Source: Charina bottae (Eukaryota; Chordata; Lepidosauria; Squamata; Charinaidae). Taken from it: a stretch of DNA of 64,000 nucleotides. Where the stretch lies: assembly GCA_023362775.1 (NCBI GenBank), contig JALMGJ010000062.1, forward strand, positions 372,001-436,000, read 5' to 3'. This document shows positions 3,458 to 61,471 of this stretch, piece after piece. Both the position numbers and the translations under genes were made by a program. A model generated the notes under the pieces. The model was not told where the DNA came from and made no database searches. It saw only the letters and a list, made by a program, of their open reading frames with translations. Within the stretch, counting starts at the first letter, position 1, and each line of letters starts with the position of its first letter.

Positions 3458-4932
3458 TTCAACCCTGAGGTCCAGAGATTCTCTTCTATTAGAAATCAAT
3501 TGTTCTGATTGAAAAGCAACAAGATTGTGGTTCGCATTTGGTGGAGCCAAGCCTTTTGTCTTTATGTTTGCCTGATCTTAGCTTTTTTAAAATATGTATT
3601 TGTATAAATGCATAAACACTTCCAAGCTGGAGGCACCGCTTAGCTGAAGTGGCTGGGCATGAAAAGTTACAAAGGGCCTGGCCAGCACACCTGGACGTAA
3701 GGTGAGGGGCACTCGCCTCTTCTCTGTTGCTGGCAAGGAAAGGACGTTGGCTGGAAGACACACTTCCATGAAGTGGCCGGGAGTCTCACATGACACAGGG
3801 GAGGGTTTGCTTTATCCGTCAAGGAAGTCTGGCTTGGTAGGGACCTGGAGGCGTTTGGCACAGAACTTTAGGCGGTACACTCCATGGTTGGGGACGATGG
3901 GAGCTGAAGTTCGGTAGAAGGAGCTCTGTTAGAAAAAAAGGGGCGCCCCATTTCCGCCTCTGAATGCAGGACAGGCCCGAAGCTCAGCCGGCCACAAACG
4001 CACCCCTCAAGATTCGAACACGTTCCCTCCCCCAGCAAGCAAGCGTTGGGAGGGCAAGTGGTGGGGGAATCTCTGCAGATTTCTCAGCTCCGGTTTCCTC
4101 TCTGCATTCCAGGTGGGGAGAGACCTCAGGGGAGGGGAGGAAAGAAGGAAACCCCCCCTGCTGGGGGGGGGGCGAATGTGAAAGGAGACAAAGCAAAGCC
4201 GGCTGGCCCTTCTGAGGGGAGGGCTTGGCTCTGCCAAGATAAACAGGAGGGGAGGCTGGCAGCCGGCCAGGAGTAACAAGGGAGGGGCCCTCTCTGTAGC
4301 CCCCTCCCTGACATGCCAGGCTGGCCTGGCCCGGAGGGGCGGGGGGGGGGGAGGGGGGAGGGAGGCCTGGCCATGCCGCAGGGCTGTGTTTGCAGAGCAT
4401 CCTTTACACAGCTGGAAGTGGGGGGGAGGCAAAGGGCCCCTCCCACTGCAGAGCTTTCCCCCCAGCACAGAAAGAGCGGGTGGTCCTTCCGTCAAAGCAG
4501 ACCCGGGTCTCGGAGGCCCCAACTCAGTCCGGAAGGCTCCAGAGAAGCCTGGGAAAGAGTCTGCTGCCAGCTCCGCGCTTCCTCTGTGGTGCATTCACAC
4601 AACCCAGCTGGCCTGGCGATCCACTCCGGCAGAGGCATTGAGGAAACCCAATGAGTTTGGTTCACGGTCCTCCTCTTGAGGGCTTTTGGTGACTTTGCAT
4701 TCCAGTTGTAGGACAAAACGGGCAGATCCTGCTGTCTTCTGCCATCCCGTAATCATCTGCCTTTCCCTTGGCAGCCGCACCGCCCGGTCTTCGAGACCAG
4801 AAGTTAAAAATAAAGGCTACAATTAAGATTGCAGGTTCCAAAGGGGCTGGAATCTGGTGCAGGTCAGAGGTCCGTCCAGCTGGTCTGACTGGCGGGCATT
4901 GCAATGGCTCTCGTCTGCTGCCTCCGGTGGCT
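3458..4932. other. Non-coding, partly GC-rich stretch
   Basis: No recognisable gene. A purine-rich, G-tract-rich section lies at about 4120-4440, including a long G run at about 4338-4365 with clear G-quadruplex potential. A GATA-type site (AAGATAA) lies near 4237-4243 and an E-box (CAGCTG) near 4409-4414. Several short ORFs on both strands reflect base composition. Confidence 0.4.
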
Positions 4933-5010
4933 CTTCTGGGCTATTGCAAGAGGGCTGCAGCGCCAGGGACAGAAAAGGCTGCCCTCTGGTGGTGTCTTGT
5001 GGCAATTACA
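4933..5010 (-). repeat. Relic solo unit of the 79-bp repeat, inverted
   Basis: GAAAAGGCTGCCCTCTGGTGG at about 4972-4992 is the exact 21-bp reverse complement of the core of the main array unit. The surrounding sequence is only loosely similar. This places a diverged, oppositely oriented unit about 2 kb left of the main array. Confidence 0.7.
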
Positions 5011-5242
5011 GCGGCAAAGGACAGTTTTGGCCTCTTCAACTTGAAAAGGTTACACTTCTAAGTTTGTTACTGTTGTTGTTATGATTGTTGTGCTCTACAG
5101 GCACACAAGGCGCACAACAAACTTGAAAAAAAAGGATATAAATGTTTAAACAGGAACAGGCCATTCTAATTCACAAACCACAGGTCGCATCGAACTATTC
5201 TGGGCTGCTGTACCTGATGTCCACCCCCATTTTCAGGGCACC

Positions 5243-5305
5243 CTTCAATGAATCCATAGGACATACTGCCCCCTGGTGGCTCATTGAGGTATTGCAGTCA
5301 AACTA
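5243..5305 (-). repeat. Second relic inverted unit of the 79-bp repeat
   Basis: The order of blocks matches an inverted array unit: a CAATGAATCCAT-like stretch, then ACTGCCCCCTGGTGGCTCATT, then ATTGCAGTCA. Point differences are numerous. The CTCF-like core is retained on the minus strand. Confidence 0.55.
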
Positions 5306-5425: not shown

Positions 5426-5772
5426 CTGCACTGCAGCCTGAGAGGATGTATTAGACCAGAGCTTTCCAAACTTTTCATGTTGGTGACATACTTTTTAGAC
5501 ATGCATCATTTCGCGACACACTCTTACAGCAGGGCATCATTTCGCGACACACTCTTACAGTTGGGCACAAGGCAGGCACTAGGACCTGCACAGAATCCTG
5601 GCAGGGCTCGGAGGCAGCAGCAGCCAGGACACACCCAGACACTGCAGCCGACACACTAACGTGTCCCGACACACAGTTTGGAAAGCTCTGTATTAGACCC
5701 ATCAATAGCAAAGGGCATGAAAAGGCTGTCCTCCGGTGGCTATTTTGGGCACTGCAGCCTCACAGGGACTAG
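5426..5772 (-). repeat. Inverted 79-bp repeat units split by a hAT insertion
   Basis: 5426-5456 (CACTGCAGCCTGAGAGGATG and onward) joins 5691-5772 once the hAT element at 5457-5690 and one copy of its duplication are removed. The join gives about one and a half units in reverse orientation relative to the main array. The left unit is of the variant type that carries GATACATTCTCTCAGG in the forward array. At about 5773 the orientation switches to forward. Confidence 0.8.
5457..5690. mobile_element. Non-autonomous hAT-type transposon
   Basis: The terminal inverted repeats are CAGAGCTTTCCAAACT at the left and AGTTTGGAAAGCTCTG at the right. A perfect 8-bp target-site duplication, TATTAGAC, lies at 5449-5456 and 5691-5698. 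The interior is short and non-coding, with a repeated CATCATTTCGCGACACACTC segment. It sits inside an inverted unit of the 79-bp repeat. Confidence 0.92.
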
Positions 5773-5839
5773 AAGACCACCATAGGGCAGCCTTTTCATG
5801 CCCTATGCTTTTGATGGGTCTAGTAGTCCCTGTGAGGCT
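5773..5839 (+). repeat. First forward unit of the 79-bp repeat, left of BovB
   Basis: The unit has the array signature (ACCATAGGGCAGCCTTTTCA, then TTTTGATGGGTC, then TAGTCCCTGTGAGGCT). It ends exactly at the BovB insertion site. Continuity with the main array is interrupted only by the BovB copy. Confidence 0.85.
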
Positions 5840-6938
5840 TTGTTGTTGTTTATTCGTTCAGTCGCTTCCGACTCTTCGTGACTTCATGGACCAGCCCACG
5901 CCAGAGCTTTCTGTCGGCCATCGCCACCCCCAGCTCCCCCACAGTCGAGTCCGTCCCCTCCAGAATATCATCCATCCATCTTGCCCTTGGTCGGCCCCTC
6001 TTCCTTTTGCCTTCCACTTTCCCCAGCATCAGCTTCTTCTCCAAGGTATCCTGTCTTCTCATTATGTGGCCAAAGTACTTCAGTTTTGCCTTTAATATCA
6101 TTCCCTCCAGTGACCAGTCTGGCTTTATTTCCTGGAGGATGGACTGGTTTGATCTTCTTGCAGTCAGAATTTTCCTCCAACACCACAGTTCAAAAGCATC
6201 TATCTTCCTTCGCTCAGCCTTCCTTATGGTCCAGCTCTCGCAGCCATAGGTTACTACGGGGAATACCATTGCTTTAACTACGTGGACCTTTGTCGTCAGG
6301 GTGATGTCTCTGCTCTTAACTATTTTATCGAGATTTGCCATTGCTCTCCTCCCAAGAAGTAGACGTTCCTGGCTGCAGTCAGCGTCTGCAGTAATCTTTG
6401 CGCCTAGAAATACAAAGTCTGTCACTGCCTCCACTTTTTCTCCCTCTATTTGCCACTTATCAATCAAGGTGGTTGCCATAATCTTGGTTATTTCGAGGTT
6501 TAACTGCAACCCAGCTTTGCACTTGCTTCTTTCACCTTTTTCATAAGGCTCCTCAGCTCCCCCTCACTTTCAGCCATCAAAGTGGTGTCATCTGCATATC
6601 TGAGATTGTTAATGTTTCTTCCAGCGATTTTAACTCCAGCCTCGGATTCCTCAAGCCCAGCACGTCGCATGATGTGTTCTGCGTACAGGTTGAATAGGTA
6701 GGGTGAGAGTATACAACCCTGCCGTACTCCTTTCCCAATCCTAAACCAGTCCGTTGTTCCGTGCTCTGTTCTTACCGTTGCTACTTGGTCGTTATACAGA
6801 TTCCTCAGGAGGCAGACAAGATGACTTGGTATCCCCATACCACCAAGAACTTGCCACAATTTGTTATGATCCACACAGTCAAAGGCTTTAGAATAGTCAA
6901 TAAAACAGAAATAGATGTTTTTCTGAAACTCCAAGGAT
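5840..6938 (-). mobile_element. BovB (RTE) LINE, 5'-truncated, inserted in the 79-bp array
   Basis: On the minus strand the sequence encodes the C-terminal part of an RTE/BovB-type reverse transcriptase. It includes the YADD catalytic box with downstream MAES, the FVFLG..I motif, RDITLTTKV, the VVTYGCESWT block and ALFELWCWRK-like residues. It breaks into two frames (ORFs at about 6500-6960 and 5850-6509), so this copy is dead. The 3' end is a short (AAC)n-type tail at 5840. The 13-bp duplication TCCCTGTGAGGCT at 5827-5839 and 6939-6951 shows insertion into a pre-existing array unit. BovB is known for horizontal spread among squamates and other animals. Confidence 0.93.
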
Positions 6939-9900
6939 TCCCTGTGAGGCTGCAGTGCCCAAAATAGCCACCAGAGGACAGCCTTTTCATGCCCTTTGCT
7001 ATTGATGGTTCCTGTAGTCCGCGTGAGGCAGCAGTGCCCAAAATAGCCACCAGAGGGCAGCCTTTTCATGCCCTTTGCTATTGATGGGTCCTGTAGTCCC
7101 TGTGAGGCTGCAGTGCCCAAAATAGCCAGCAGAGGGCAGGCTTTTCATGCCCTATGCTATTGATGGGTCCTGTAGTCCCTGTGAGGCAGCAGTGCCCAAA
7201 ATAGCCACCAGAGGGCAGCCTTTTCATGCCCTTGGCTATTGATGGGTCCTGTAGTCCCTGTGAGGCAGCAGCGCCCAAAATAGCCACCAGAGGGCAGCCT
7301 TTTCATGCCCTTGGCTATTGATGGGTCTTGTAGTCCCTGTGAGGCTGCAGTGCCCAAAATAGCCAGCAGAGGGCAGGCTTTTCATGCCCTATGCTATTGA
7401 TGGGTCCTGTAGTCCCTGTGAGGCTGCAGTGCCCAAAATAGCCAGCAGAGGGCAGCCTTTTCATGCCCTTGGCTATTGATGGGTCCTGTAGTCCCTGTGA
7501 GGTTGCAGTGCCCGAAACAGCTACCAGAGGGCACCCTTTTCATGCCCTTGGCTATTGATGGATCTTGTAGTCCCTGTGAGGCTGAAGTGCCCAAAATAGC
7601 CACCAGAGGGCAGCCTTTTCATGCCCTTTGCTATTGATGGTTCCAATAGTCCCTGTGAGGCTGCAGTGCCGAAAATAGCCACCAGAGGGCAGCCTTTTCA
7701 TGCCCTTTGACATTGATGGGTCCTGTAGTCCCTGTGAGGCTGTAGTGCCCGAAATAGCCAGCAGAGGGCAGCCTTTTCATGCCCTTTGCTATTGATGGGT
7801 CATGTAGTCCCTGTGAGGCTGCAGTGCCCAAAATAGCCACCGGAGGGCAGCCTTTTCATGCCCTTGGCTATTGATGGATCTTGTAGTCCCTGTGAGGCTG
7901 CAGTGCCCAAAATAGCCACCAGAGGGAAGACTTTTCATGCCCTTTGCTATTGATGGGTCCTGTAATCCCTGTGAGGCTGAAGTGCCCAAAATAGCCACCA
8001 GAGGGCACCCTTTTCATGCCCTTGGCTATTGATGGGTCTTGTAGTCCCTGTGAGGCTGCAGTGCCCAAAATAGCCAGCAGAGGGCAGCCTTTTCAAGCCC
8101 TTGGCTATTGATGGATCTGATACATTCTCTCAGGCTGCAGTGCCCAAAATAGCCAGCAGAGGGCAGCCTTTTCATGCCCTTGGCTATTGATGGGTCCTGT
8201 AGTCCCTGTAAGGCTGCAGTGCCCGAAATAGCCACCAGAGGGCAGCCTTTTCATGCCCTTGGCTATTGATGGTTCCTGTAGTCCCTGTGAGGCTGCAGTG
8301 CCCAAAATAGCCAGCAGAGGGCAGCCTTTTCAAGCCCTTGGCTATTGATGGATCTGATACATTCTCTCAGGCTGCAGTGCCCAAAATAGCCAGCAGAGGG
8401 CAGCCTTTTCATGCCCTTGGCTATTGATGGATCTTGTAGTCCCTGTGAGGCTGCAGTGCCCAAAATAGCCACCAGAGGGCAGGCTTTTCATGCCCTTGGC
8501 TTTTGATGGGTCCTGTAGTCCCCGTGAGGCTGCAGTGCCCAAAATAGCCACCAGAGGGAAGACTTTTCATGCCCTTTGCTATTGATGGTTCCAATAGTCC
8601 CTGAGAGGCTGAAGTGCCCAAAATAGCCACCAGAGGGCACCCTTTTCATGCCCTTGGCTATTGATGGGTCTTGTAGTCCCTGTGAGGCTGCAGTGCCCAA
8701 AATAGCCAGCAGAGGGCAGCCTTTTCATGCCCTTGGCTATTGATGGATCTGATACATTCTCTCAGGCTGCAGTGCCCAAAATAGCCAGCAGAGGGCAGCC
8801 TTTTCATGCCCTTGGCTATTGATGGTTCCTGTAGTCCCTGTGAGGCTGCAGTGCCCAAAATAGCCAGCAGAGGGCAGCATTCTCATGCCCTTGGCTATTG
8901 ATGGGTCTGATACATTCTCTCAGGCTGCAGTGCCCAAAATAGCCAGCAAAGGCCAGCCTTTTCATGCCCTTGGCTATTGATGGGTCCTGTAGTCCCCGTG
9001 AGGCTGCAGTGCCCGAAATAGCCACCAGAGGGCACCCTTTTCATGCCCTTGGCTATTGATGGATCTTGTAGTCCCTGTGAGGCTGCAGTGCCCAAAATAG
9101 CCACCAGAGGGCAGCCTTTTCGTGCCCTTTGCTATTGATGGTTCCAATAGTCCCTGTGAGGCTGCAGTGCCCAAAATAGCCACCGGAGGGCAGCCTTTTC
9201 ATGCCCTTTGCTATTGATGGGTCTTGTAGTCCCTGTGAGGCTGCAGTGCCCAAAATAGCCACCGGAGGGCAGCCTTTTCATGCCCTTTGCTTTTGATGGT
9301 TCCTGTAGTCCGCGTGAGGCAGCAGTGCCCAAAATAGCCACCAGAGGGCAGGCTTTTCATGCCCTTGGCTTTTGATGGGTCCTGTAGTCCCCGTGAGGCT
9401 GCAGTGCCCAAAACAGCCACCAGAGAGCAGCCTTTTCATGCCCTTTGCTATTGATGGGTCCTGTAGTCCCCGTGAGGCTTCAGTGCCCAAAATAGCCAGC
9501 AGAGGGCAGCCTTTTCATGCCCTTTGCTATTGATGGGTCTTGTAGTCCCTGTGAGGCTGCAGTGCCCAAAATAGCCAGCAGAGGGCAGACTTTTCATACG
9601 CTTTGCTATTGATGGGTCCTTTAGTCCCTGTGAGGCTGCAGTGCCCAAAATAGCCAGCAGAGGGCAGCCTTTTCATGCCCTTAGCTATTGATGGGTCTGA
9701 TACATTCTCTCAGGCTGCAGTGCCTAAAATAGCCACCAGAGGGAAGCATTTTCATGCCCTTTGCTATTGATGGTTCCAATAGTCCCTGTGAGGCTGAAGT
9801 GCCCAAAGGAGCCACCAGAGGGAAGCATTTTCATGCCCTTTGCTATTGATGGGTCCTGTAGTCCCTGTGAGGCTGTAGTGCCCAAAATAGCCAGCAGAGG

Positions 9901-12900
9901 GCAGCCTTTTCATGCCCTTTGCTATTGATGGGTCATGTAGTCCCTGTGAGGCTGCAGTGCCCAAAATAGCCACCGGAGGGCTGCCTTTTCATGCCCTTTG
10001 CTATTGATGGGTCTTGTAGTCCCTGTGAGGCTGCAGTGCCCAAAATAGCCACCAGAGGGCAGCCTTTTCATGCCCTTTGCTATTGATGGGTCCTGTAGTC
10101 CCTGTGAGGCTGTAGTGCCCAAAATAGCCACCAGAGGGCACCTTTTCATGCCCTTTGCTATTGATGGTTCCAATAGTCCCTGTGAGGCTGCAGTGCCCAA
10201 AATAGCCACCAGAGGGAAGCCTTTTCATGCCCTTTGCTATTGATGGGTCTTGTAGTCCCTGTGAGGCTGCAGTGCCCAAAATAGCCACCAGAGGGAAGCC
10301 TTTTCTTGCCCTTTGCTATTGATGGGTCCTGTAATCCCTGTGAGGCTGAAGTGCCCAAAATAGCCACCAGAGGGCACCCTTTTCATGCCCTTGGCTATTG
10401 ATGGTTCCAGTAGTCCCTGAGAGGCTGCAATGCCCAAAATAGCCACCAGAGGGAAGCATTTTCATGCCCTTTGCTATTGATGGGTCCTGTAGTCCCTGTG
10501 AGGTTGCAGTGCCCGAAATAGCCACCAGAGGGCACCCTTTTCATGCCCTTGGCTATTGATGGGTCCTGTAGTCCCTGTGAGGCTGCAGTGCCCAAAATAG
10601 CCACCAGAGGGCAGCCTTTTCATGCCCTTTGCTATTGATGGGTCTTGTAGTCCCTGTGAGGCTGCAGTGCCCAAAATAGCCACCAGAGGGAAGCCTTTTC
10701 ATGCCCTTTGCTATTGATGGGTCCTGTAATCCCTGTGAGGCTGAAGTGCCCGAAATAGCCACCAGAGGGCACCCTTTTCATGCCCTTTGCTATTGATGGG
10801 TCCTGTAATCCCTGTGAGGCTGAAGTGCCCAAAATAGCCACCAGAGGGCACCCTTTTCATGCCCTTTGCTATTGATGGTTCCAGTAGTCCCTGAGAGGCT
10901 GCAATGCCCAAAATAGCCACCAGAGGGAAGCATTTTCATGCCCTTTGCTATTGATGGGTCCTGTAGTCCCTGTGAGGTTGCAGTGCCCGAAATAGCCACC
11001 AGAGGGCACCCTTTTCATGCCCTTGGCTATTGATGGGTCCTGTAGTCCCTGTGAGGCTGCAGTGCCGAAAATAGCCAGCAGAGGCCAGCCTTTTCATGCC
11101 CTTTGCTATTGATGGGTCCTGTAGTCCCTGTGAGGCTGCAGTGCCCAAAATAGCCACCAGTGGGCAGCATTTTCATGCCCTTTGCTATTGATGGTTCCAA
11201 TAGTCCCTGAGAGGTTGCAGTGCCCAAAACAGCCAGCAGAGGGCAGCCTTTTCATGCCCTATGCTATTGATGGGTCCTGTAGTCCCTGTGAGGTTGCAGT
11301 GCCCGAAATAGCCACCAGAGGGCACCCTTTTCATGCCCTTGGCTATTGATGGATCTTGTAGTCCCTGTGAGGCTGCAGTGCCCAAAATAGCCACCAGAGG
11401 GCAGCCTTTTCATGCCCTTTGCTATTGATGGTTCCAATAGTCCCTGTGAGGCTGCAGTGCCCAAAACAGCCACCAGAGGGCAGCATTTTCATGCCCTTTG
11501 CTATTGATGGTTCCAATAGTCCCTGTGAGGCTGCAGTGCCCAAAATAGCCACCAGAGGGCAGCATATTCATGCCCTTTGCTATTGATGGTTCCAATAGTC
11601 CCTGTGAGGTTGCAGTGCCCCAAATAGCCACCAGAGGGCAGCATTTTCATGCCCTTTGCTATTGATGGTTCCAATAGTCCCTGTGAGGTTGCAGTGCCCA
11701 AAACAGCCACCAGAGGGCAGCATTTTCATGCCCTTTGCTATCGATGGTTCCAATAGGCCCTGTGAGGTTGCAGTGCCCAAAACAGCCACCAGAGGGCAGC
11801 CTTTTCATGCCCTTTGCTATTGATGGGTCCTGTAGTCCCTGTGAGGCTGTAGTGCCCGAAATAGCCAGCAGAGGGCAGCCTTTTCATGCCCTTTGCTATT
11901 GATGGGTCATGTAGTCCCTGTGAGGCTGCAGTGCCCAAAATAGACACCGGAGGGCAGCCTTTTCATGCCCTTTGCTATTGATGGGTCATGTAGTCCCTGT
12001 GAGGCTGTAGTGCCTGAAATAGCCAGCAGAGGGCAGCCTTTTCATGCCCTTTGCTATTGATGGGTCATGTAGTCCCTGTGAGGCTGCAGTGCCCAAAATA
12101 GTCACCGGAGGGCAGCCTTTTCATGCCCTTTGCTATTGATGGGTCTTGTAGTCCCTGTGAGGCTGCAGTGCCCAAAATAGCCACCAGAGGGAAGACTTTT
12201 CATGCCCTTTGCTATTGATGGGTCCTGTAATCCCTGTGAGGCTGAAGTGCCCAAAATAGCCACCAGAGGGCAGCCTTTTCATGCCCTTGGCTATTGATGG
12301 GTCTTGTAGTCCCTGTGAGGCTGCAGTGCCCAAAATAGCCAACAGAGGGCAGCCTTTTCATGCCCTTGGCTATTGATGGTTCCAATAGTCCCTGTGAGGC
12401 TGCAGTGCCCAAAATAGCCACCGGAGGGCAGCCTTTTCATGCCCTTTGCTGTTGATGGGTCTTGTAGTCCCTGTGAGGCTGCAGTGCCCAAAATAGCCAC
12501 TGGAGGGCAGCCTTTTCATGCCCTTTGCTTTTGATGGTTCCTGTAGTCCGCGTGAGGCAGCAGTGCCCAAAATAGCCACCAGAGGGCAGGCTTTTCATGC
12601 CCTTGGCTTTTGATGGGTCCTGTAGTCCCCGTGAGGCTGCAGTGCCCAAAACAGCCACCAGAGGGCAGCCTTTTCATGCCCTTTGCTATTGATGGGTCCT
12701 GTAGTCCCCGTGAGGCTTCAGTGCCCAAAATAGCCAGCAGAGGGCAGCCTTTTCATGCCCTTTGCTATTGATGGGTCCTTTAGTCCCTGTGAGGCTGCAG
12801 TGCCCAAAATAGCCAGCAGAGGGCAGCCTTTTCATGCCCTTAGCTATTGATGGGTCTGATACATTCTCTCAGGCTGCAGTGCCCAAAATAGCCACCAGAG

Positions 12901-15172
12901 GGAAGCATTTTCATGCCCTTTGCTATTGATGGTTCCAATAGTCCCTGTGAGGCTGAAGTGCCCAAAGGAGCCACCAGAGGGCCTTTTCATGCCCTTTGCT
13001 ATTGATGGTTCCAGTAGTCCCTGAGAGGCTGCAATGCCCAAAATAGCCACCAGAGGGAAGCCTTTTCATGCCCTTTGCTATTGATGGGTCTTGTAGTCCC
13101 TGTGAGGCTGCAGTGCCCAAAATAGCCACCAGAGGGAAGCCTTTTCATGCCCTTTGCTATTGATGGGTCCTGTAATCCCTGTGAGGCTGAAGTGCCCAAA
13201 ATAGCCACCAGAGGGCCTTTTCATGCCCTTGGCTATTGATGGTTCCAGTAGTCCCTGAGAGGCTGCAATGCCCAAAATAGCCACCAGAGGGAAGCCTTTT
13301 CATGCCGTTTGCTATTGATGGGTCCTGTAATCCCTGTGAGGCTGAAGTGCCCAAAATAGCCACCAGAGGGCCTTTTCATGCCCTTGGCTATTGATGGTTC
13401 CAGTAGTCCCTGAGAGGCTGCAATGCCCAAAATAGCCACCAGAGGGAAGCCTTTTCATGCTCTTTGCTATTGATGGGTCCTGTAATCCCTGTGAGGCTGA
13501 AGTGCCCAAAATAGCCACCAGAGGGCCTTTTCATGCCCTTGGCTATTGATGGTTCCAGTAGTCCCTGAGAGGCTCCAATGCCCAAAATAGCCACCAGAGG
13601 GAAACATTTTCATGCCCTTTGCTATTGATGGGTCCTGTAGTCCCTGTGAGGCTGCAGTGCCCAAAATAGCCACCAGTGGGCAGCATTTTCATGCCCTTTG
13701 CTATTGATGGTTCCAATAGTCCCTGAGAGGTTGCAGTGCCCAAAACAGCCAGCAGAGGGCAGCCTTTTCATGCCCTATGCTATTGATGGGTCCTGTAGTC
13801 CCTGTGAGGTTGCAGTGCCCGAAATAGCCACCAGAGGGCACCCTTTTCATGCCCTTGGCTATTGATGGATCTTGTAGTCCCTGGGAGGCTGCAGTGCCCA
13901 AAATAGCCACCAGAGGGCAGCCTTTTCATGCCCTTTGCTATTGATGGTTCCAATAGTCCCTGTGAGGCTGCAGTGCCCAAAATAGCCACCAGAGGGCAGC
14001 ATATTCATGCCCTTTGCTATTGATGGTTCCAATAGTCCCTGTGAGGTTGCAGTGCCCCAAATAGCCACCAGAGGGCAGCATTTTCATGCCCTTTGCTATT
14101 GATGGTTCCAATAGTCCCTGTGAGGCTGCAGTGCCCAAAACAGCCACCAGAGGGCAGCCTTTTCATGCCCTTTGCTATTGATGGTTCCAATAGTCCCTGT
14201 GAGGCTGCAGTGCCCAAAATAGCCACCAGAGGGCAGCATATTCATGCCCTTTGCTATTGATGGTTCCAATAGTCCCTGTGAGGTTGCAGTGCCCCAAATA
14301 GCCACCAGAGGGCAGCATTTTCATGCCCTTTGCTATTGATGGTTCCAATAGTCCGTGTGAGGTTGCAGTGCCCCAAATAGCCACCAGAGGGCAGCATTTT
14401 CATGCCCTTTGCTATTGATGGTTCCAATAGTCCCTGTGAGGTTGCAGTGCCCAAAACAGCCACCAGAGGGCAGCCTTTTCATGCCCTTTGCTATTGATGG
14501 TTCCAATAGTCCCTGAGAGGCTGCAATGCCCAAAATAGCCACCAGAGGGAAGCCTTTTCATGCCCTTTGCTATTGATGGGTCCTGTAGTCCCTGTGAGGC
14601 TGCAGTGCCGAAAATAGCCAGCAGAGGCCAGCGTTTTCATGCCCTTTGCTATTGATGGGTCCTGTAGTCCCTGTGAGGCTGCAGTGCCCAAAATAGCCAC
14701 CAGTGGGAAGCATTTTCATGCCCTTTGCTATTGATGGTTCCAATAGTCCCTGAGAGGCTGCAGTGCCCCAAATAGCCACCAGAGGGCAGCATTTTCATGC
14801 CCTTTGCTATTGATGGTTCCAATAGTCCCTGTGAGGTTGCAGTGCCCAAAACAGCCACCAGAGGGCAGCATTTTCATGCCCTTTGCTATTGATGGTTCCA
14901 ATAGTCCCTGTGAGATTGCAGTGCCCAAAACAGCCACCAGAGGGCAGCATTTTCATGCCCTTTGCTATTGATGGTTCCAATAGTCCCTGTGAGGCTGCAA
15001 TGCCCAAAATAGCCACCAGAGGGAAGCATTTTCATGCCCTTTGCTATTGATGGTCCCAATAGTCCCTGTGAGGCTGCAGTGCCCAAAACAGCCACCAGAG
15101 GGAAGCATTTTCATGCCCTTTGCTATCGATGGTTCCAATAGTCCCTGTGAGGCTGCAATGCCCGGAGTAGCC
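6939..15172 (+). repeat. 79-bp tandem array, about 104 units, each with a CTCF-like core
   Basis: 8.23 kb of head-to-tail units of 79 bp, with a few 76-bp units lacking CAG. Unit landmarks in order are TAGTCCCTGTGAGGCTGCAG, TGCCCAAAATAGCCACCAGA, GGGCAGCCTTTTCATGCCCT, and TTGCTATTGATGGGTCC or a GGTTCCAA variant. The section CCACCAGAGGGCAG or CCAGCAGAGGGCAG fits the vertebrate CTCF core consensus CCASYAGRKGGC, always on the plus strand. Recurrent subtypes differ at fixed positions: GGGAAG or GGGCAC for GGGCAG, CCGGAGGG, and GATACATTCTCTCAGG replacing the CCTGTGAGG part. Because 79 = 3x26+1, each frame shifts every unit, which creates overlapping minus-strand ORFs of about 69 codons that are not genes. 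Binding by CTCF is inferred from motif match only. Confidence 0.95.
13003..13600 (+). repeat. 155-bp dimeric higher-order repeat inside the array
   Basis: Units alternate 79 and 76 bp. One member has CCTGAGAGGCTGCAATGCCC and GGGAAGCC; the other has GTAATCCCTGTGAGGCTGAA and the 3-bp-deleted AGAGGGCCTTTTC. The pair repeats about four times with little divergence, indicating recent local amplification of a dimer. Confidence 0.8.
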
Positions 15173-16467: not shown

Positions 16468-22944
<6,477 letters not shown>

Positions 22945-23060
22945 GCTCGTCCGCCGGCCCACACAGAGGCCCGCTTCCGGCGCGTGCGGGTGACGTCCTC
23001 CGGGGAGCGCGGGGGCTGAGTCCGCTGACGTCACGCGGATCCCCGCCCGGCCTCTCCCGC
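22945..23060 (-). promoter_or_regulatory. LRRC47 CpG-rich promoter with CRE sites
   Basis: Dense CpG sequence immediately 5' of the ATG. A perfect CRE, TGACGTCA, lies at 23026-23033, a half CRE (TGACGT) at 22991-22996, and an ETS-type CTTCCGG at about 22973-22979. The start site itself cannot be placed from sequence. Confidence 0.65.
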
Positions 23061-23081
23061 GCAGGGCCCGGGTCGTTGGTG

Positions 23082-23880
23082 TTGGACTGGCCGCCTGAGG
23101 AATTCTGGGAGTTGAAGTCCACCCATCTTCAAGGGGCCAAGGTTGAGAAACACCGTTTTAGGTCTGATACATTTTCTCCATCCATTTGTCCCTTGCTTGG
23201 TCCTTCCAATGGCGACACCCTTGCTGCTGGTTGTCCTCTTCTTGTTCCCACTGATGGATCAGGTGCCATCAAGGCTGTGTTGACTCTAAGCGACCACCTA
23301 GACCAGTGTTTCTCAACCTCGGCAACTTTCAGCTGTGTGGACTTCAACTCCCAGAATTCCCAGCCAGCTGGGGAATTTTAGGAGTTGAAGTCCACACAGC
23401 TGAAAGTTGCCGGGGTTGAGAAACACTGACCTAGACAGACCTTCTCCAGGGTATCTGTCCCTAACCTGGTCCCTCAGGTCTTCCAAGGAGTCTGTCCACC
23501 TTGCTGCTGGTCCTCTTCTTCATTAACTGATTATGTGCCATCCAGTCGGCACTGACTCTAAGGGACCGTATAGACAGGCCTTCTCCAAGATGACTCATCC
23601 CCAAACCAACCCTTCAGGTCTTCCCATCGTCTCCCCCCATCGCCCCTATAACTGAGTCCACCCCCTGTGCTGTTGGTCACCCTCTTCTCCTCCCTCCCAC
23701 CCTTCCCAGCATTATGGACTTCCCCAGCAGACGTTGCCATCGCAGCCACCAACTTTCTAACCCAAGATCCTGAGAATGCTTTAAGACTTCTATCAATGGT
23801 GCAGATTGTTAAGATTGAAACCCCACCATTCTTGCAGGACCTCAAGAACGTAGATGGGGTTAGGGTTAGATCATAAATAA
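23082..23880. repeat. Old RTE-like repeat split by a palindromic hAT MITE
   Basis: 23082-23152 is half of the palindromic MITE family described at 23304. 23155-23303 and 23429-23880 read like degenerate copies of an RTE-type 3' region (GCCATCAAGGCTGTGTTGACTC, GACCTTCTCCA and similar). They are interrupted by the complete MITE. Confidence 0.45.
23304..23428. mobile_element. Palindromic hAT-type MITE with 8-bp duplication
   Basis: CAGTGTTTCTCAACC at the left and GGTTGAGAAACACTG at the right, with a body that is itself largely palindromic around GACTTCAACTCCCAGAATTC. The perfect 8-bp target duplication ACCTAGAC is at 23296-23303 and 23429-23436. Related copies lie at 28945-29079, 37075-37199, 39821-39937, 59066-59181 and 62353-62442. 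Half copies lie at 23082-23152, 25530-25605 and 40862-40926. Confidence 0.9.
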
Positions 23881-28377: not shown

Positions 28378-31300
28378 TCATCGCTTTGCATACGTTCTGC
28401 CAGTGTTTTTATTCAAGCCTCCTCGAGGGGTGGGGATTTTGCTTCCAACCGTGGGGGACCGCAGCTTCGTTCCCATTGGCCCGGATCGGTTCAGGGCAGT
28501 TCCAGCCACCCGGCCTGCAGAACCAGAAGACAAAGGGGGCTGGGTGAGTTTAGCGCCCGTTTGAGGAAGAGGTGAGAAACCGGGGGGGGGGGGGGCTGCC
28601 AAGTGCTGCTGCCTCCCCCTTTCAGGAGCTCCAGCCAGCGCAGCCCGTTGCGACAGATGGGGTGGCTGCAATCGAGGGCCTGGAGGGCCCCGGTGAGACA
28701 GGGATTCCCGGCTTGCGTTGTGCAGCCCGAACATACAGCCTTGAGAATTATGGGGAGATAGGACGGCACCCCCGTTTTGGAGGGAGGAAAACGTGAGAGG
28801 CTCTGTACCGGTGACTGTCTGCGTTGGCATGCTCTTGTTCAAGGAAAGAGTGCGCCTTGGATTCATGCGGCAGCCATCTTTGCCCATCAGGTGCACCTTC
28901 CAGGCCTGCAGGGGGAGAGAAAAAAAGGCTCAGATGGTTTATAGCTGTGTTGCTGAACCTCGGCCCCTTTAAGATGTGTGGACTCCAACTCCCAGAATTC
29001 CCCAGCCAGCCATGCTGGCTGGGGAATTCTGGGAGTTGGAGTCCACGCACCTTAAAGGGGCCGAGGTTCAGCAACACTGGTCTACAGCGACAACGAAGAG
29101 GGATGAGGCAGATCGCAAGGCGACGGGCTCACAACCCACAGCAGGGTGGTGCTTCAGGGGCAGCAGCCAGACTCCCAATCACAGTCCATTACACACTCTC
29201 ACCTCCTCTCCAGGTGTAAAATTGTCATGGCACAACGGACAACGATTGGCCACTTTTTCAGGTTTGGCAGCTGGAAAGGAGAGAGGAAAATATCAGGTGG
29301 GGGGGGGGGGTCCCGGATGCAAGGAGTCTATACGTACACAACCAAAGTGGGTGTCTTTGCAAACAGGAGCTCTGTCCTTGGGGGCGGTAAAGCGAAAGGA
29401 ACGCTGACTCTGGGGTGTCCCCAAAGAATAATTTTAAGGGTTTCTGCCTCCAGACTTCCACGAGCACGGTGAGATTCCACCCGCATTATAGTTAGGCCCC
29501 TGGATGCTTCAGCTCACCTGGAGCCTCAGTAAGTCGCAGGTAATCCAGGAAAAGGTACAGAACCTTAATGCAGCTGGCAGATGGACTAAGCTTGGTTTAT
29601 TCTGGCCATCAAGGAGCGGCATCCTGAATACACTCGCCCTTGCTCTCCCAAAAGCCATCTTGGCAAATGCGGGTTCCGTGATGCATATTTGCATCATGTG
29701 GGGCCTCTGGTGTAGGAAACACTGAAACATGAGCCCTCAAGTTTTCTCTCTGGCTTATCTGCCTTCATTTTAGCAGTACAGGCGGTCCTTGGTTAACGAC
29801 CACGCATTCAGCAACCATTCGAACTTACGACGGTGCCGAATGGGTGGTACTTATGACCAGTCCTCAAAGTTCCGGCCGCCCGAGTGCCCCCACGATCATC
29901 TGATCATGATCCAGGTGCTCGGCAACTGGCGCGGATTTCCGACCATCGCAGCATCCGCGGTTACGTGATCGCGATTTGAAACCTTCCCTGGTGGCTTCCC
30001 ACAAACAAAGTCAATGGGGAAGCCGGCAGGAAATCAGGGTCACGTTAGGTCCTTGCTTAATAACCTGCAGTGATTCGCTTGATGACGGTAACGGGGTACT
30101 GCCAGAACGGCTGTCGCTAAGTGGTGCAGTCACGTGACATCACACTTTATGACCGCATTGCTTAGCGATGGAAATTCCAGTCCCAATTACCGTCACTAAG
30201 TGAGGACTACCTGTACACAAAGCATCATGAGAGAGCAAGTCTACCTCAGAGCCACCCCCAATGTGAAGGCTCAGAGTCACTTACAATCCCCCCAAAATTA
30301 CTACCCAATTCACATCTAATGCGACAGAAGGGGAAAATGATTAAATACCGAACTGAAAGCATTACGTTGACATTGAAGTAAAACCAAATGAAACCCCATG
30401 CTTTTCTTTAGTCTATTGTTTGGAGCGCAGCCCCCTTCCTGGAAGAAGCTGGGCATTCCTTGGTCGGCGTTTCCGCCTCGTGTGAATGCGCAGGCCGAGG
30501 GAGAGGAGCGCGCCCGCCCCTCCTCCCTGCCCTGCCCACAAGGAAGCCTTGTCCCTCGGGTCAGGAGTACTTACGACTGCAAGCCCTCCCCTTGACGTGT
30601 CGGGGCAGCTCATCCTTCGGCAGGGCCTCGCAACAGCGGGAACACTTGCCAAAGTTGTCCTTCTTTTCACACTCCGTCAGCAAATGCTCCGTCAGGCTGG
30701 CAATCTCGACCACCTGCCCCAGCAGGAAGAGAAGAGTCCCTGGCCTGAGAAGCAGGCCGGCAGGAGAGCGCCTCCCTCCCTGAATCACGCAATGCCCGCG
30801 TGCCCAATGTCTGGGGCACCGCTCAGGAGGTCTCTGCCAGCCACTGGCTTTTACACAGCGTTTGGGAAGTTACTACATCACCTCTTCTTCCCCAAATTCT
30901 TGGAACAGTTTGCAAACATGCTTGATCTTTGAAAAAACGAAGCATACGGCGCTGAAGGAACCTGTAGAGGGCACAGGGAACGGCCTTGACGGACAGGAGG
31001 AAGGGCCGCTACCAAGGCAGCGGTCAGATAAGAGGGGCTTGAGCCCGGGCCAAGAAAGTAAGGCAAGAAAACGTCTCGGATAAGCCCCTCCCTAGTCCAC
31101 GTGAAGAGGGAGGGAGGGAGGGAGGGAGCGGGGAGCGCATTCAGACTTGCAAGGTTCTGTTACTAGAGCCACTTCAATAAAAGTAGTCCTGGCCTATATG
31201 GCATTCAGTTTCTTAGTCTGGTCTACCTTGTTGGGCTGACAGAGCCTGAAGAAAAAGGTTAAAAGTAGGCATTCTGTCTGGGGTTGAGTGTTGGTGGATG

Positions 31301-34300: not shown

Positions 34301-36996
34301 GAGTTCCGGTTTGGCCACGCAGAAAGGCAAGATCCCCAGGGAGGTGGGCAGGACTGCCCTGTGTCCTGGCACGCTGTTCTCCCTTTACCCTCACAGATCA
34401 GGGATGGAACCGCCTTCAGAGAACCTAGAGCCGGAGCTCCCCACCTCCAAAATGCAGAGTCTTTGCCCCCCCCCCCCGTCAGCAGGCCGGAAAAGGGGGG
34501 CAGCTCCCGGCTCACCGGGTGCGGTGCACTAGAAGCCAGTTGGAGGAGCAGCTGGCAATTTGGTGCTCCTCTGAGTAACAGCAGGAGGCAGGAGCCGGCC
34601 TCCCCAGCCTGACACCCTGCAGATGCGCTGGACGCCAACTCCCGCCACACCTGGCAAGGCCCCTGCTGGCTGGGGGCGATGGGCGTTGCGCCTGGGATGC
34701 CTCCGAGACCCCCGGATACCTTGGCAGCCTGGGCTTCCGCCTGCATCTCCTTCAGACCCGCCAGTTGACCTTGCAGGGCTTTGATCTCCTCTCTCTTTTC
34801 CTTTTCGTCCGTCGCCATCTTCTTCTGGGCCTGTTCGAACAAGCAGCTGACAGCCACCGGAGCCCGGAGCCAGCATCACGCCAGGCCCCGCGGGCTCCTG
34901 CTCCCGGCCCTGGAACGCGACCCCCCACGGCAGGAGGAGGACCCTTGAAGCTTCTAGCTCGCATGGTAAGGCGGATGGCCGTTGGGGCAAATCTTGGAAT
35001 GACCAATGAAAGTAGCTATTCAGTGATAATTTTTATAGACCGCCTGGCTCCCGACGCTGGGTGGTTTACAGCAACTCTGACTGGCGTAATTCAGTGGATT
35101 AGGGAACAGAAGCAGAAGCCGACAGCAAGAGCGATGACCGTCCCTCTCTGCAATGACTTGAAAGGGAAACGGACAATTGATGGCAGGCGTGAAGCAGGAA
35201 GGGGAGATCTCTCCAATTCGTCTTGATTAATGAACTTTCTAGAAGTACAGGTAGTCCTCGACTTACGACCATTTGTTTAGCGACCGAAGTTACACCGCTG
35301 CCGAAAAAAGTGACTTACGACTGGTCCTCACACTTACGACCATTGCAGCGTCCCCGCAGTCACGTGATCAAAATTTGGGCACTTGGCAACCGGCATGCAT
35401 TTACGACGGTTGCAGCGTCCCGGGGTCACGTGATCGCCATTTGCAACCTTCCCAGCCGGCTTCCGACAAGCAGAATCAATGGGGAACTGTGTGATTCACT
35501 TAACGACCACACGATTCACTTAAGGAGCGGGTGATTCGCTTAACGACCAGCACAAAAATGTTGTAAAATGGGGTGTGGTTACGTGATGCCTCGCTTAACG
35601 ACCTCATGACGAATTTCCCGGTCCCTATTGCGGTCGTAAGTCGAGGACTACCTGTATATAGCTAGCTAGAAAAACGGTAGGAAAAGGAAGAGGACGACAG
35701 ATCCTGGCCCCCTGCAGCTCTTCCATCTGACAAACTAAATGCTCTGACCCCAACTGGCCATGGGAAGAGTGTTAAGTTTAAGAACTGGAGTGCCTCTTCT
35801 TCCTCCTACATCCCGAGTTGGGCGAGGAGAAACTAACTCAGACACGCTCTTTGGATGTGCTCCGTACCTGGATTTCTAAATGGTACGTATTGGGTGAAGG
35901 ATGTTCGGAATGGACCGTGCAGAGCCTCAGAACATCCACACAAGCATTACATTTTCTTGGGGTGAAGCGTAGCGTTCTCACCATCGCTCCACACTCACTT
36001 TGAGTTCGGCCTCCGTGAGTCTGCCGTCTATTTTAGCGAACCCGTCAAACAGCGTCTTGTACAGCACGTTCTTGCGCGTGTTCGCGTCGTCAGGGGGAAG
36101 GTAATCCAGGATGTTGTCTCGGTGCTGCCGATACATATCCAAGATGATCCGCAGAGCTGTTTCCCGCACCTCGAACACACGGTGCTCCAGAGCTCCACTT
36201 GCAAACTGGGATGTAAGGAAGATGGAAACGCGTTCAGATCAGGCTCGAATCTGAGAACGCATCATCCTCATCTAGGATCTGGAGTGGCAAGGGAAAGGTT
36301 GTTGTGCAGATACGCACACCTGTGGCCCCACCAAATGCCACAGAAATGTTGTAACTGTCTGAAAAAAGAGGTTTGGTTGAGATGGGATAGAACGTCTGGA
36401 AGTAGGGAGCCGGTGTCGTATTATGACACAGGAAAGTCCTGTATTGGGCTCAAATCTGAGAACGAAAGAGGGGGAACAGTACGGGACCCCTGGATGCCTG
36501 GGTCCTTACTCGCATGACGTTATCGACGGTAAAGCCGGAGTTCTCGGTCCCCAGGTCTCTCAGCAAGCGTCCCGCCAACTCCACCTGGCTCGTGGCAAGG
36601 TGCGCAGGGCAGTGGGGTCTCAGGGGCTGCACCAAATGGGCAGGGATGATCTGAAGAGGCTTCACTTCGTTGCAGAGGGCCATCTCCTGGCAAGGGGAAA
36701 CAAGCAGGGCAGGCTGATTGCTTGGCACGTGGCTTGTGCGAGTCAGGGGGCAGGAAGGTTTTCCTGGACTCATCTGAAGCCTGGAAAGATTTGTATGGAG
36801 CATATACCAAGAGCAGGGAGGGACAACTCCTACATGTGACACCCCCCCCCCACAAGACCCATGTTTGCAGTCCCCTTTGAGAGGAAAACAATGATTTTTA
36901 GTGGTGCAATTGTTGGGGACCTTTTTTTGACAAAATCAACGTTAATAAGCACATTAAGGCATCTTGCTTGCTTCACCCTACAAGTAACTGTAATGC

Positions 36997-44818: not shown

Positions 44819-47800
44819 TTTGATGGGCTCCCACCTTTTCCACACACAAGGTGGTTCTGTACAGCACTGTCAGGGTTCATGTCTATGAATCCTGCCATTA
44901 GAATCTATAATAGCTTAGTGCTTGTATAGTAGTTGGGAGGGGGAATGACAGTTGAGTGTTATGTCTGCTGCTGGAAGCTGGAAGTGTTTATTGGGACGTT
45001 GTTGTTGAGATCATCACAAGCACATTCAGACACGCCAGAGACTTCAAATCCCTGCAGTGAGGCTTCGTCTGCTTGAAATCCTGACCCGTCCCTCGACTCT
45101 CTCAAATCCCCATTAAGCACTCCAGAGCCAGGGAGGCCAAGCTGAGGGTCTGTGGCCATAGGCATTACTCCTATAGATAATACTCCACAAGCATTAAGGA
45201 AGCCCCCTCCCCGAGACACCCCAAAACGACCACGGATTTGGAATTGTTGATTTGACGGAAAGGAGTACACACGGATAAATAACCCCATGGACGATACTTG
45301 CATAACGACAATTCGGTTTAACTTAATCAAATGCGAGGGTCTTTAGGAGGGGGGCGGCGGCTGTCAGTGTCGCTCAAAGGCCAAAGGCGGCCCTTTTCCT
45401 GAAAAACGGGGCCCTCCTTTCTTAGAGGCTCAAGTGGGCTGCGGGGTGCGCCAACAGGGATGGGGGGCTGTATGTTCAACACTCCTCCCATACCGTCCCT
45501 GCTCTTAAAAAACCACCTCGGGGGGGGGAAAGACGCGCTGCCTGGTCTCCCTTCTTCTACGCCAGCGGCACAGAGCGGGGCTGCTCTGCTCTGCGTTCCT
45601 TCCTTCCCGAAGCGGCAAATACACCGAACGAGGGCGAGGGTGTGTTCTGGGCCCCTCCTTGGCGTCTGACGCCCACAGAGCCTAAGCCAGAAGTCCTCCC
45701 AGGGCCCCGATTGATCTACGCAACGTGCAAGCGGAGAACGTCGGCCTCGTCTCCTCCTCACGCCCTCGAGCCGGAAGCCAGCAGGAAGTCCAGATTCCAA
45801 CTCTGGGTTTCAGGTGGGGAACAGGCCCTACATCCTGGCACCCGTGGCATGCTGGACTGGGGAGACCGGAACCTTGGAGGCAGGCTGTGGCCGCCCCAGC
45901 TGGCGCCCCTGTTCAGGCCCCCTCGCCGCTTCCCCTTCTCTGCCAGGATAGTCTCCACTGGCCTCCAGATCCCCTTCCGGGCAGGCAAGAACCCTCCTAG
46001 GAGGCAAGCTTGGGCTACAAGCCTCCCCCCTTTTAAAAAATTGTTAAGAATGCCTTGGGGCCTGTGCACTTGAAAAAGGGACCAGTGTTTCCTCTGCAGC
46101 CTGCTGGTTCCCCATTCATTTATTTCAAAGAATCTAAAATAAAAATCCACGGGGGGCAGGGAGGCCAGTGGGCACTTTGGAAGGTCTTGCCCTGGGCTGG
46201 CACTCCTTGGCAAGGAAGAGCAGCTCAGCTTGGGCACGGCCACTCTTGCCTAATGCTCCTTTGGCAAGGATTCTTGAGTTAAATCCGGACCCTGCCTGTC
46301 TTTCTGGGTCGATAATGTTGTGTTACCCTTCCTGCATTCATACCCCACCTCTCCGCTGAGAGTTCAGCCCCCCCCATTTTATCCCCCATGTGAAGAGTGA
46401 AAAAGAGTGAAAAAGAGTGAAAAAGAGGGACCCAGAGTCATCCCCGAGCTCCCAACACCTGAACAACTACTTCATATTGACGTTATTGTGTTACTATATA
46501 ATACACATAGTCCTCGACTTATGGCCATTCACCTAGCGACCGTTTGAAATTACGACAGCACTGAAAAAAGTGACTTATGACCGGCCCTCACAGTTACGAC
46601 CGTTGCAGCGTCCCGCAGTCACATGATCAAAATTCAGGTGCTTGGCAACTGGCACATATTTACAAGGCTTGCAGCGTCCTGGGTTCACGTGATCGCTCTT
46701 TGCGATCTTCCCAGCCGGCTTTCGACAAGCAAAATCAATGGGGGAGGCCAGATTTGCTTAATGACCACGTGATTCGCTTAACAACCGTGGCAAAAAAGGC
46801 CATAAAAATCAGGCGCAACTCACTTAATGACCGCATCGCTTAGCAAGGGAAGTTCCAGTCCCAATTGTGGTCGTAAGTCAAGGACTACCTGTGGCCTATT
46901 GAGCATGGAGGAAACAGTGTCAACTAGCATTCACAAACATGTCTCTTAGCATCTGTGGCCAGTTATCTGGATTGCGCCAGGCACGCACTCGCTCTTCCAG
47001 TGGGACTGATCTTGAGTCAGCTACAGGGCCAGGCAGTGCCCACTTGCAACATCCCTCTGCCAGGCGACCCCAGGGGAACTCGGGCAGGCATACCGACATG
47101 GCTCAGGAAAGAGAAAGCTTACCCCAGCCTCTGGAATCGCTCCGATTTATAGGGCGCAAAGTAGTCGGGCAGATTTTCGCTGATATAGAACTCAATTTTG
47201 CTGGAGATCATGTATTGGTGAGCCAGGAGCTGCAGTTTTCGAATTCTACATCGTTCTACCATCTGGAGGACTATTTCTTGGGGATACTGACAGAGCCTGA
47301 AAATGAAGAAAAAAGGAGGTCTTCAATTTCCCATGCCTGGGTTGAAAGGAAATGAATATTTTATTACACTCAGCGACCAGTGGAAGGAAGGAAGGAAGGA
47401 AGGAAGGAAGGAAGGAAGGAAGGAAGGAAGGAAGGAAGGAAGGCAATAAAATGTAAGAAACATCCATATCCCTATAACCCTAACCCATTTGTATATAAGT
47501 AAGTCAATAAGTGAATAAATTTGTTGTTTATTCGTTCAGTCGTTTCCGACTCTTCGTGACTTCATGGACCAGTGCACGCCAGAGCTTTCTGTCGGCCGTC
47601 ACCATCCCCAGCTCCCCAATGGTTGAGTCCGTCACCTCCAGAATACCATCCATCCATCTTGCCCTTGGTCGGCCCCTCTTCCTTTTGCCTTCCACTTTCC
47701 CCAGCATCAGCTTCTTCTCCAGGGTATCCTGTCTTCTCATTATGTGGCCAAAGTACTTCAGTTTTGCCTTTAATATCATTCCCTCAAGTGAGCAGTCTGG

Positions 47801-58856: not shown

Positions 58857-61471
<2,615 letters not shown>

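Follow-up and report, generated by a model that had tools for sequence, protein, structure and literature searches.

Organization of the Repeat Array

The DNA considered here, hereafter the window, comprises 64,000 nucleotides of Charina bottae (contig JALMGJ010000062.1, positions 372,001 to 436,000 of the forward strand). Just past the 3′ end of the LRRC47 gene it carries a tandem array of 79-bp units, in which an extended CTCF-like site, composed of a core and an upstream motif, recurs in a single orientation (Table 1). Tandem Repeats Finder (TRF), applied to the assembled sequence, places the array at 6939−15163 with a period of 79, 104.3 copies and 91% matches. When it is cut into individual repeats, 104 full units are obtained; 99 measure 79 bp, four measure 76 bp and one measures 78 bp, and a 31-bp stub remains at 15142−15172. 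The approximately 104 head-to-tail units of the original prediction, which had been made from the sequence alone, are therefore recovered. Its term macrosatellite has to be replaced. A minisatellite is a tandem repeat with a unit of roughly 10−100 bp, a range that includes the 79 bp found here. Macrosatellites such as DXZ4 are described as having multi-kilobase units (PMC8662614).

The units share a mean pairwise identity of 0.904, which is almost flat with distance: neighbors reach 0.914, and the values lie between 0.898 and 0.916 across lags of 1−40 units. Within the array, blocks have been copied locally: exact repeats reach 277 bp, and blocks that are nearly identical, shifted by about 32 units, reach 688 bp. 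This identity pattern, together with the local block copies, is that of a minisatellite homogenized through ongoing exchange. An assembly artifact, with copies collapsed or falsely expanded, is highly improbable. Assemblies often get the number of copies in tandem arrays wrong; here, however, the units differ from one another with their subtypes mixed, the nested retroelement described below is flanked by an in-phase duplication, and the window contains no N. We consider the array very likely real, although its copy number may be off.

Two other natures of the array were rejected. With regard to coding, the longest frame lying wholly inside it, among frames of at least 75 amino acids, spans 104 amino acids, and the unit length of 79 is not divisible by three. 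Structured RNA is not supported either: searched at gathering thresholds, the window matches no Rfam family, and two 79-base array stretches, one of them folded on both strands (z-scores −1.14, 0.13, and −0.47), gave no sign of structure.

CTCF Core and Upstream Motif in the Units

Each unit was scored, as the original prediction had proposed, with a position weight matrix (PWM) for CTCF (MA0139.1 counts). The unit consensus reaches 21.4 bits (p = 2.7e-8). On the plus strand, the array holds 103 matches at p < 1e-4, the usual threshold, 95 at p < 1e-5, 86 at p < 1e-6 and 57 at p < 1e-7, while its minus strand holds none; the only unit failing at p < 1e-4 starts at 8914. This outcome is not a refutation, and the claim of about a hundred same-facing motifs stands. 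Above a score of 14 there are 95 array matches, compared with a mean of 0.36 (maximum 2) in 50 dinucleotide shuffles. The best core lies at an identical offset in all 104 units, and its mean score by array quarter is 19.5, 19.7, 18.9, and 19.3. In the best ungapped match to CCASYAGRKGGC, 67 units show no mismatch, 33 show one and four show two; read strictly in the aligned columns, the corresponding numbers are 63, 33, and eight. On either reading the core is mismatch-free in most units, as predicted. Outside the array, the window contains 29 matches at p < 1e-4, where about 11 are expected, and four at p < 1e-5.

An upstream motif of the type bound by zinc fingers 9−11 is present in each unit, and was overlooked in the original prediction. 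The unit is laid out with TGCAGTGCC in columns 13−21, a 5-bp spacer in columns 22−26 and the 19-mer core in columns 27−45. The upstream motif TGCARTRCC is exact in 79 of the 104 units, carries one mismatch in 24 and two in a single unit. Its distance from the core is constantly 5 bp, unchanged by any indel across the array, and columns 13−39 are indel-free in all 104 units. A 31-mer pattern covering upstream motif and core, with up to three mismatches allowed, matches the window at 101 places, of which 100 belong to the array and one to the inverted copy; 100 shuffles contain none. Since the array copies are not independent, the fair chance test concerns the founder unit: a core this strong is expected in a random 79-bp unit with a probability of about 4e-6, and requiring the upstream motif as well, at a distance of 5 or 6 bp, lowers this to about 1e-10.

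This architecture is in line with what is described for CTCF. Fingers 9−11 bind the upstream motif in two spacing forms, with a gap counted there as 13 or 14 (PMC11472169); counted in the usual way, the spacing is most often 5 bp, with 6 bp also frequent (PMC9004084), and 5 bp is likewise the commonest in PMC12885311. In an extended site, a core above threshold is preceded at 5 or 6 bp by the upstream motif; in the array this distance is 5 bp. The optimal upstream motif determined by Spec-seq is TGCAATACCC (PMC10287918). According to PMC12885311, the upstream motif is carried by 13−15% of CTCF sites and increases the affinity of mammalian CTCF; in the IL3 site, its mutation reduces binding 3-fold and abolishes insulator activity.

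CpG Content and Site Spacing

The array contains 41 CpGs in 8.2 kb, an observed/expected ratio of 0.072 versus 0.534 for the window. Any CpG at all occurs in 35 of the 104 units; the bipartite site is CpG-free in 83 and contains CpG in 21. At core positions 2−3, where methylation is reported to matter for CTCF (PMC10287918), none of the 104 units has a CpG, the mapping of these positions onto the unit being our own. Because the array is so poor in CpG, CTCF binding should be largely independent of methylation. The scarcity could be accounted for simply by a founder unit without CpG.

Neighboring 19-mers are separated by a gap of 60 bp. At 10.5 bp per turn, neighbors lie 7.5 turns apart, so that alternate units should face the same side of the helix. 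The original prediction regarded 79 bp as too tight for all sites to be bound at once. This objection does not hold, as closer mammalian motif pairs, with linkers of 30−40 bp, are described as doubly DNase-footprinted (PMC4562119); full simultaneous occupancy is consequently possible in principle.

Left Flank of the Array

The two best CTCF matches outside the array (5264, 21.1 bits; 4977, 18.2) are both on the minus strand, less than 2 kb to its left. The first belongs to a near-ideal extended site that lies about 1.6 kb before the start of the array as given by TRF. A derivation of this site from the unit is not supported: once the motif is set aside, 33% of 500 controls are equally similar. 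The sequence around 4977 does resemble the unit, as none of 500 controls with the motif kept and the rest shuffled scores as high; its upstream motif fails the extended-site search (up to two mismatches per half, three in total, spacers of 4−7 bp). By the same search, the only extended sites outside the array are the 5264 site and the inverted unit with its core at 5724. Matches farther away are weak, 13.95 at 30958 (plus) and 13.2 at 36675 (minus), slightly above the 12.9 of the 5724 copy.

With minus-strand sites at 4977, 5264, and 5724 followed by the plus-strand array from 6939, the locus is divergent. Divergent CTCF motifs are common at boundaries of topologically associating domains (TADs), where they are not required, and the locus shares this trait. 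The minus- and plus-strand units meet at 5691−5839 in a near-palindromic junction with 49-bp arms, 88% complementary and 37 bp apart; it is a possible relic of the change of direction of the array.

Two insertions interrupt this region. The fragment of a long interspersed nuclear element (LINE), which we take to be BovB-like, is flanked by a 13-bp duplication, TCCCTGTGAGGCT, at 5827−5839 and 6939−6951, in phase with the unit. Unit copies must therefore have lain on both sides at insertion, and the true left end is before 6939: the start given in the original prediction coincides with that of TRF, but the LINE splits the array and unit copies continue to its left. The second insertion, presumably of the hAT family, is bordered by an 8-bp duplication, TATTAGAC, at 5449−5456 and 5691−5698, and splits the inverted unit copy. 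It also holds two 31-bp copies at 5503−5567, as detected by TRF. The minus-strand left sites, the nested LINE, the hAT-like insert and the CpG scarcity had all been overlooked.

The relatives of the unit at 4917−5020 and 5428−5839, inverted or diverged, could also suggest that the unit stems from a mobile or satellite family present at many loci, of which the array would be one. This origin is unlikely, given that the rest of the window yields no further copy at a local score cut of 44; one 31-base pattern, a weak test, had 0 exact matches in viral contigs.

Neighboring Genes and Other Repeats

The original prediction had placed the 3′ end of LRRC47 beside the array, and three minus-strand frames bear this out by matching chain 6zxd_k, Leucine-rich repeat-containing protein 47. 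The first LRR exon lies in a CpG-rich stretch (observed/expected 0.905 at 22.0−23.2 kb). A CEP104-like exon follows farther right; CEP104 is the next gene after LRRC47 in human order. To the left of the array no exons of TP73, CCDC27, or SMIM1 were identified, with only one SMIM1 peptide searched for, which gave no match in the window at half identity or more. Placing this flank on the TP73 side presumes the human gene order. As to a human LRRC47/SMIM1/CTCF boundary, a single paper of the open-licence literature names all three, a microRNA study of ischemic stroke that mentions LRRC47 and CTCF once each and SMIM1 four times.

Table 1. Features of the array, its left flank and the neighboring genes (window coordinates)
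Feature	Position	Strand	Basis
Diverged inverted unit-like sequence, CTCF core match 4977−4995, score 18.2	4917..5020	−	PWM, similarity controls
Single extended CTCF site, score 21.1, best outside array	5264..5296	−	TGCAATACC, 5-bp spacer, GAGCCACCAGGGGGCAGTA
Piece of inverted unit, separated from 5691−5778 by hAT-like insert	5428..5456	−	1/500 controls as good
hAT-like insert, 234 bp	5457..5690		Perfect 16-bp terminal inverted repeats
Inverted unit copy, CTCF match at 5724 (12.9)	5696..5778	−	Alignment, PWM; exact upstream motif at 5 bp
Unit copy severed from array by LINE	5763..5839	+	Local score 109
Nested reverse-transcriptase LINE fragment, 1099 bp	5840..6938	−	PF00078, E = 4.2e-22, at 6503−7144 (−)
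79-bp tandem array, extended CTCF-like site in each full unit	6939..15172	+	TRF, unit alignment, PWM scan
Example bipartite site	8452..8484	+	Upstream TGCAGTGCC 8452−8460; spacer CAAAA 8461−8465; core TAGCCACCAGAGGGCAGGC 8466−8484
LRRC47 C-terminal exon, ~1.3 kb from array end	16471..16698	−	PDB 6zxd_k residues 502−575, E = 8.4e-10
Open frame with internal LRRC47 exon	19952..20446	−	PDB 6zxd_k residues 206−365, E = 1e-64
Open frame with first LRR exon of LRRC47	22144..23157	−	PDB 6zxd_k residues 3−205, E = 1.2e-25; Pfam LRR_8
Open frame with CEP104-like exon (TOG domain)	36453..36935	−	PF21040, E = 1.3e-13

Several other repeats were observed in the window. A long inverted repeat at 2382−3459 has 100-bp arms (2382−2481 and 3360−3459) that are 89% complementary, and encloses a 66-bp tandem array of 8.7 copies at 2538−3106, whose units are complementary to 3170−3314; it is probably a non-autonomous element or a large hairpin. 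The PWM gives no CTCF-like score in 2538−3106. Degenerate arrays of GCATGTATT-like units, with TRF periods of 15, 25, 51, and 135 bp, occupy 49249−50069 and end at a GC-rich stretch (GC 0.625 at 50−52 kb). A perfect (GGAA)15.5 microsatellite is found at 47382−47443 and a long imperfect TA tract at 61057−61275. The sequence at 110−450 resembles a short interspersed element (SINE), presumably the squamate Sauria SINE. Both this SINE-like sequence and the BovB-like one fit a squamate host.

Comparison with Known CTCF Repeats

The likeness to DXZ4 put forward in the original prediction holds for the principle of tandem, same-facing CTCF motifs, but not for unit size, CpG content or location. DXZ4/Dxz4, together with the likewise X-linked FIRRE and ICCE, is described, like the array, as a tandem repeat whose copies carry CTCF motifs pointing the same way, with an estimated 10−100 copies of DXZ4 in human and 14 of Dxz4 in mouse (PMC5899087, PMC6985041). 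In contrast to the 79 bp found here, its units measure 3.0 kb in human and 3.8−5.7 kb in mouse; it is CpG-rich and methylation-controlled in primates, whereas the array has the low CpG ratio given above; and it is X-linked, PLS3-adjacent and transcribed (PMC3491370), while the array adjoins LRRC47 and a CEP104-like gene. The array thus has one same-facing motif per unit, as DXZ4-type repeats do, and has neither the multi-kilobase unit nor the CpG richness nor the PLS3 neighbor. As unit size, CpG content and location all differ, it is not a DXZ4 member.

Other systems share single traits with the array. Clustered CTCF target sites (2xCTSes), to which CTCF and BORIS bind, have closely spaced motifs (PMC4562119), as does the array with its core period of 79 bp; they are, however, described as having at least two motifs per peak, whereas the array has about a hundred, in one orientation and at a near-fixed period. 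Human variable number tandem repeats (VNTRs) bound by CTCF/BORIS, including SVA VNTRs, also create CTCF sites by tandem repetition, and some of their units fit a single site, but the dominant type is reported to carry a short partial motif with staggered sites across units (PMC5007689), while the unit here holds the whole extended site. The tRNA VNTR at human 1q23.3 is copy-number-variable, binds CTCF and is a proposed boundary; it is a tRNA repeat with 7.3-kb units (PMC4041453), compared with 79 bp here. The IL3 insulator has an enhancer-blocking CTCF site with the upstream motif that the array units share (PMC12885311), and the Pcdh/HOXD insulators are, like this locus, clustered boundaries of mixed orientation (PMC10703910). 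Unlike the array, these insulators have few sites and are not described as satellites in the cited accounts. A further candidate for a CTCF minisatellite, PMC8282625, was rejected, its minisatellite being described as the INS VNTR with a MAZ site. No CTCF tandem repeat or satellite of squamates, lizards or reptiles was found by title in the open-licence literature. By analogy, the array may work like DXZ4-type arrays, clustered CTCF sites and CTCF/BORIS VNTRs.

The same analogy would also allow a germline platform for CTCFL/BORIS, with the array serving chiefly in testis, either as an alternative start site or for histone retention in sperm. Clustered CTCF motifs are indeed described as preferred by CTCF-BORIS complexes in mammals (PMC5007689, PMC10832218). 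Nevertheless, we regard such a role as quite unlikely: its basis is mammalian, and human 2xCTSes are reported to be enriched at active promoters (PMC4562119), while the array is CpG-poor and located at the 3′ end of a gene.

Proposed Function and Tests for Constraint

From the array with its near-universal bipartite site, its orientation, the divergent sites on its left and its CpG scarcity, we infer CTCF binding, cohesin arrest and insulation at the locus. In the reading that we favor, with a probability of roughly 0.6, one genuine, complete CTCF site, comprising the finger 9−11 motif and the core, would have been tandemly amplified into a minisatellite at a CTCF boundary just past the LRRC47 3′ end. 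CTCF would occupy many units in one direction, with its N-terminus pointing right toward LRRC47 and CEP104, and the array would halt cohesin coming from that side; it would be a redundant barrier, working one way and largely independent of methylation. Cohesin coming from the left would be halted by the minus-strand sites there (5264, with 4977 and 5724), and both components would together form a divergent boundary. Directional contacts from same-facing arrays are described for Dxz4 (PMC5899087, PMC6985041), where inversion of the motifs redirects the contacts (PMC5899087).

Several observations weigh against this picture. The scoring matrix is mammalian; its columns sum to 908−913. Both halves of the site are mismatch-free in just 44 of the 104 units, and the five indels of the array all fall in unit columns 40−43, in the 3′ part of the core. 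To the right of the array the window holds no strong convergent partner, the best minus-strand match being the one of 13.2 at 36675. Variability in the 19 core columns is slightly above that in the remaining 60 (0.071 versus 0.057). Across the core, it does not track the information content of the matrix columns (Spearman rho −0.17, p = 0.50), with 19 of the 79 possible offsets performing as well, and it is not significantly lower in the high-information core columns than in the rest (0.054 versus 0.065, p = 0.68). Compared with random substitutions, distinct core variants counted once each show no significant shift toward milder changes (P = 0.14), nor do rare ones (fewer than three copies, n = 12, P = 0.58). 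Weighted by count, core variants do lean toward changes tolerated by CTCF (P = 0.006), and those present in at least three copies (n = 10) are milder (P = 0.048). As these are several post hoc tests on copies sharing descent, the positive ones are treated as a hint only; most are negative and do not demonstrate selection for CTCF binding, and homogenization alone explains the sameness of the units.

These results lend weight to the strongest rival, a neutral minisatellite in which a real CTCF site was caught in an expansion by slippage or unequal exchange, some copies perhaps being bound with no effect beyond that of a single neighboring site. Besides the missing column constraint, the local block duplications correspond to ordinary turnover, and the array has been invaded by the LINE and the hAT-like insert. 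On the other hand, core and upstream motif are still recognizable over 8.2 kb at an indel-free spacing, and the core score is even along the array quarters, features that homogenization could likewise produce. We take neutral expansion to be a real possibility, although not the one we favor. Beyond the amplified boundary site that we prefer, a further proposal is tentative and, in our judgment, doubtful: the roughly 100-site, CpG-poor minisatellite would derive from a single site for zinc fingers 3−11, and its copy number would set the strength of the one-way, methylation-independent barrier to cohesin at the LRRC47 boundary.

The natural CTCF arrays described in the literature cited here are mammalian X-linked macrosatellites, long-unit repeats, partial-motif VNTRs and small clusters. 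In the present array, a unit barely exceeds a single CTCF site in size, and the site that it carries is of the rarer, high-affinity form. If bound, the array would provide a natural dose series for the number of same-facing CTCF sites stopping cohesin, largely apart from DNA methylation, and would make it possible to test whether minisatellite turnover alters chromatin boundaries between individuals. If the copy-number proposal were true, it would constitute a tunable insulator, expanding and contracting within populations.

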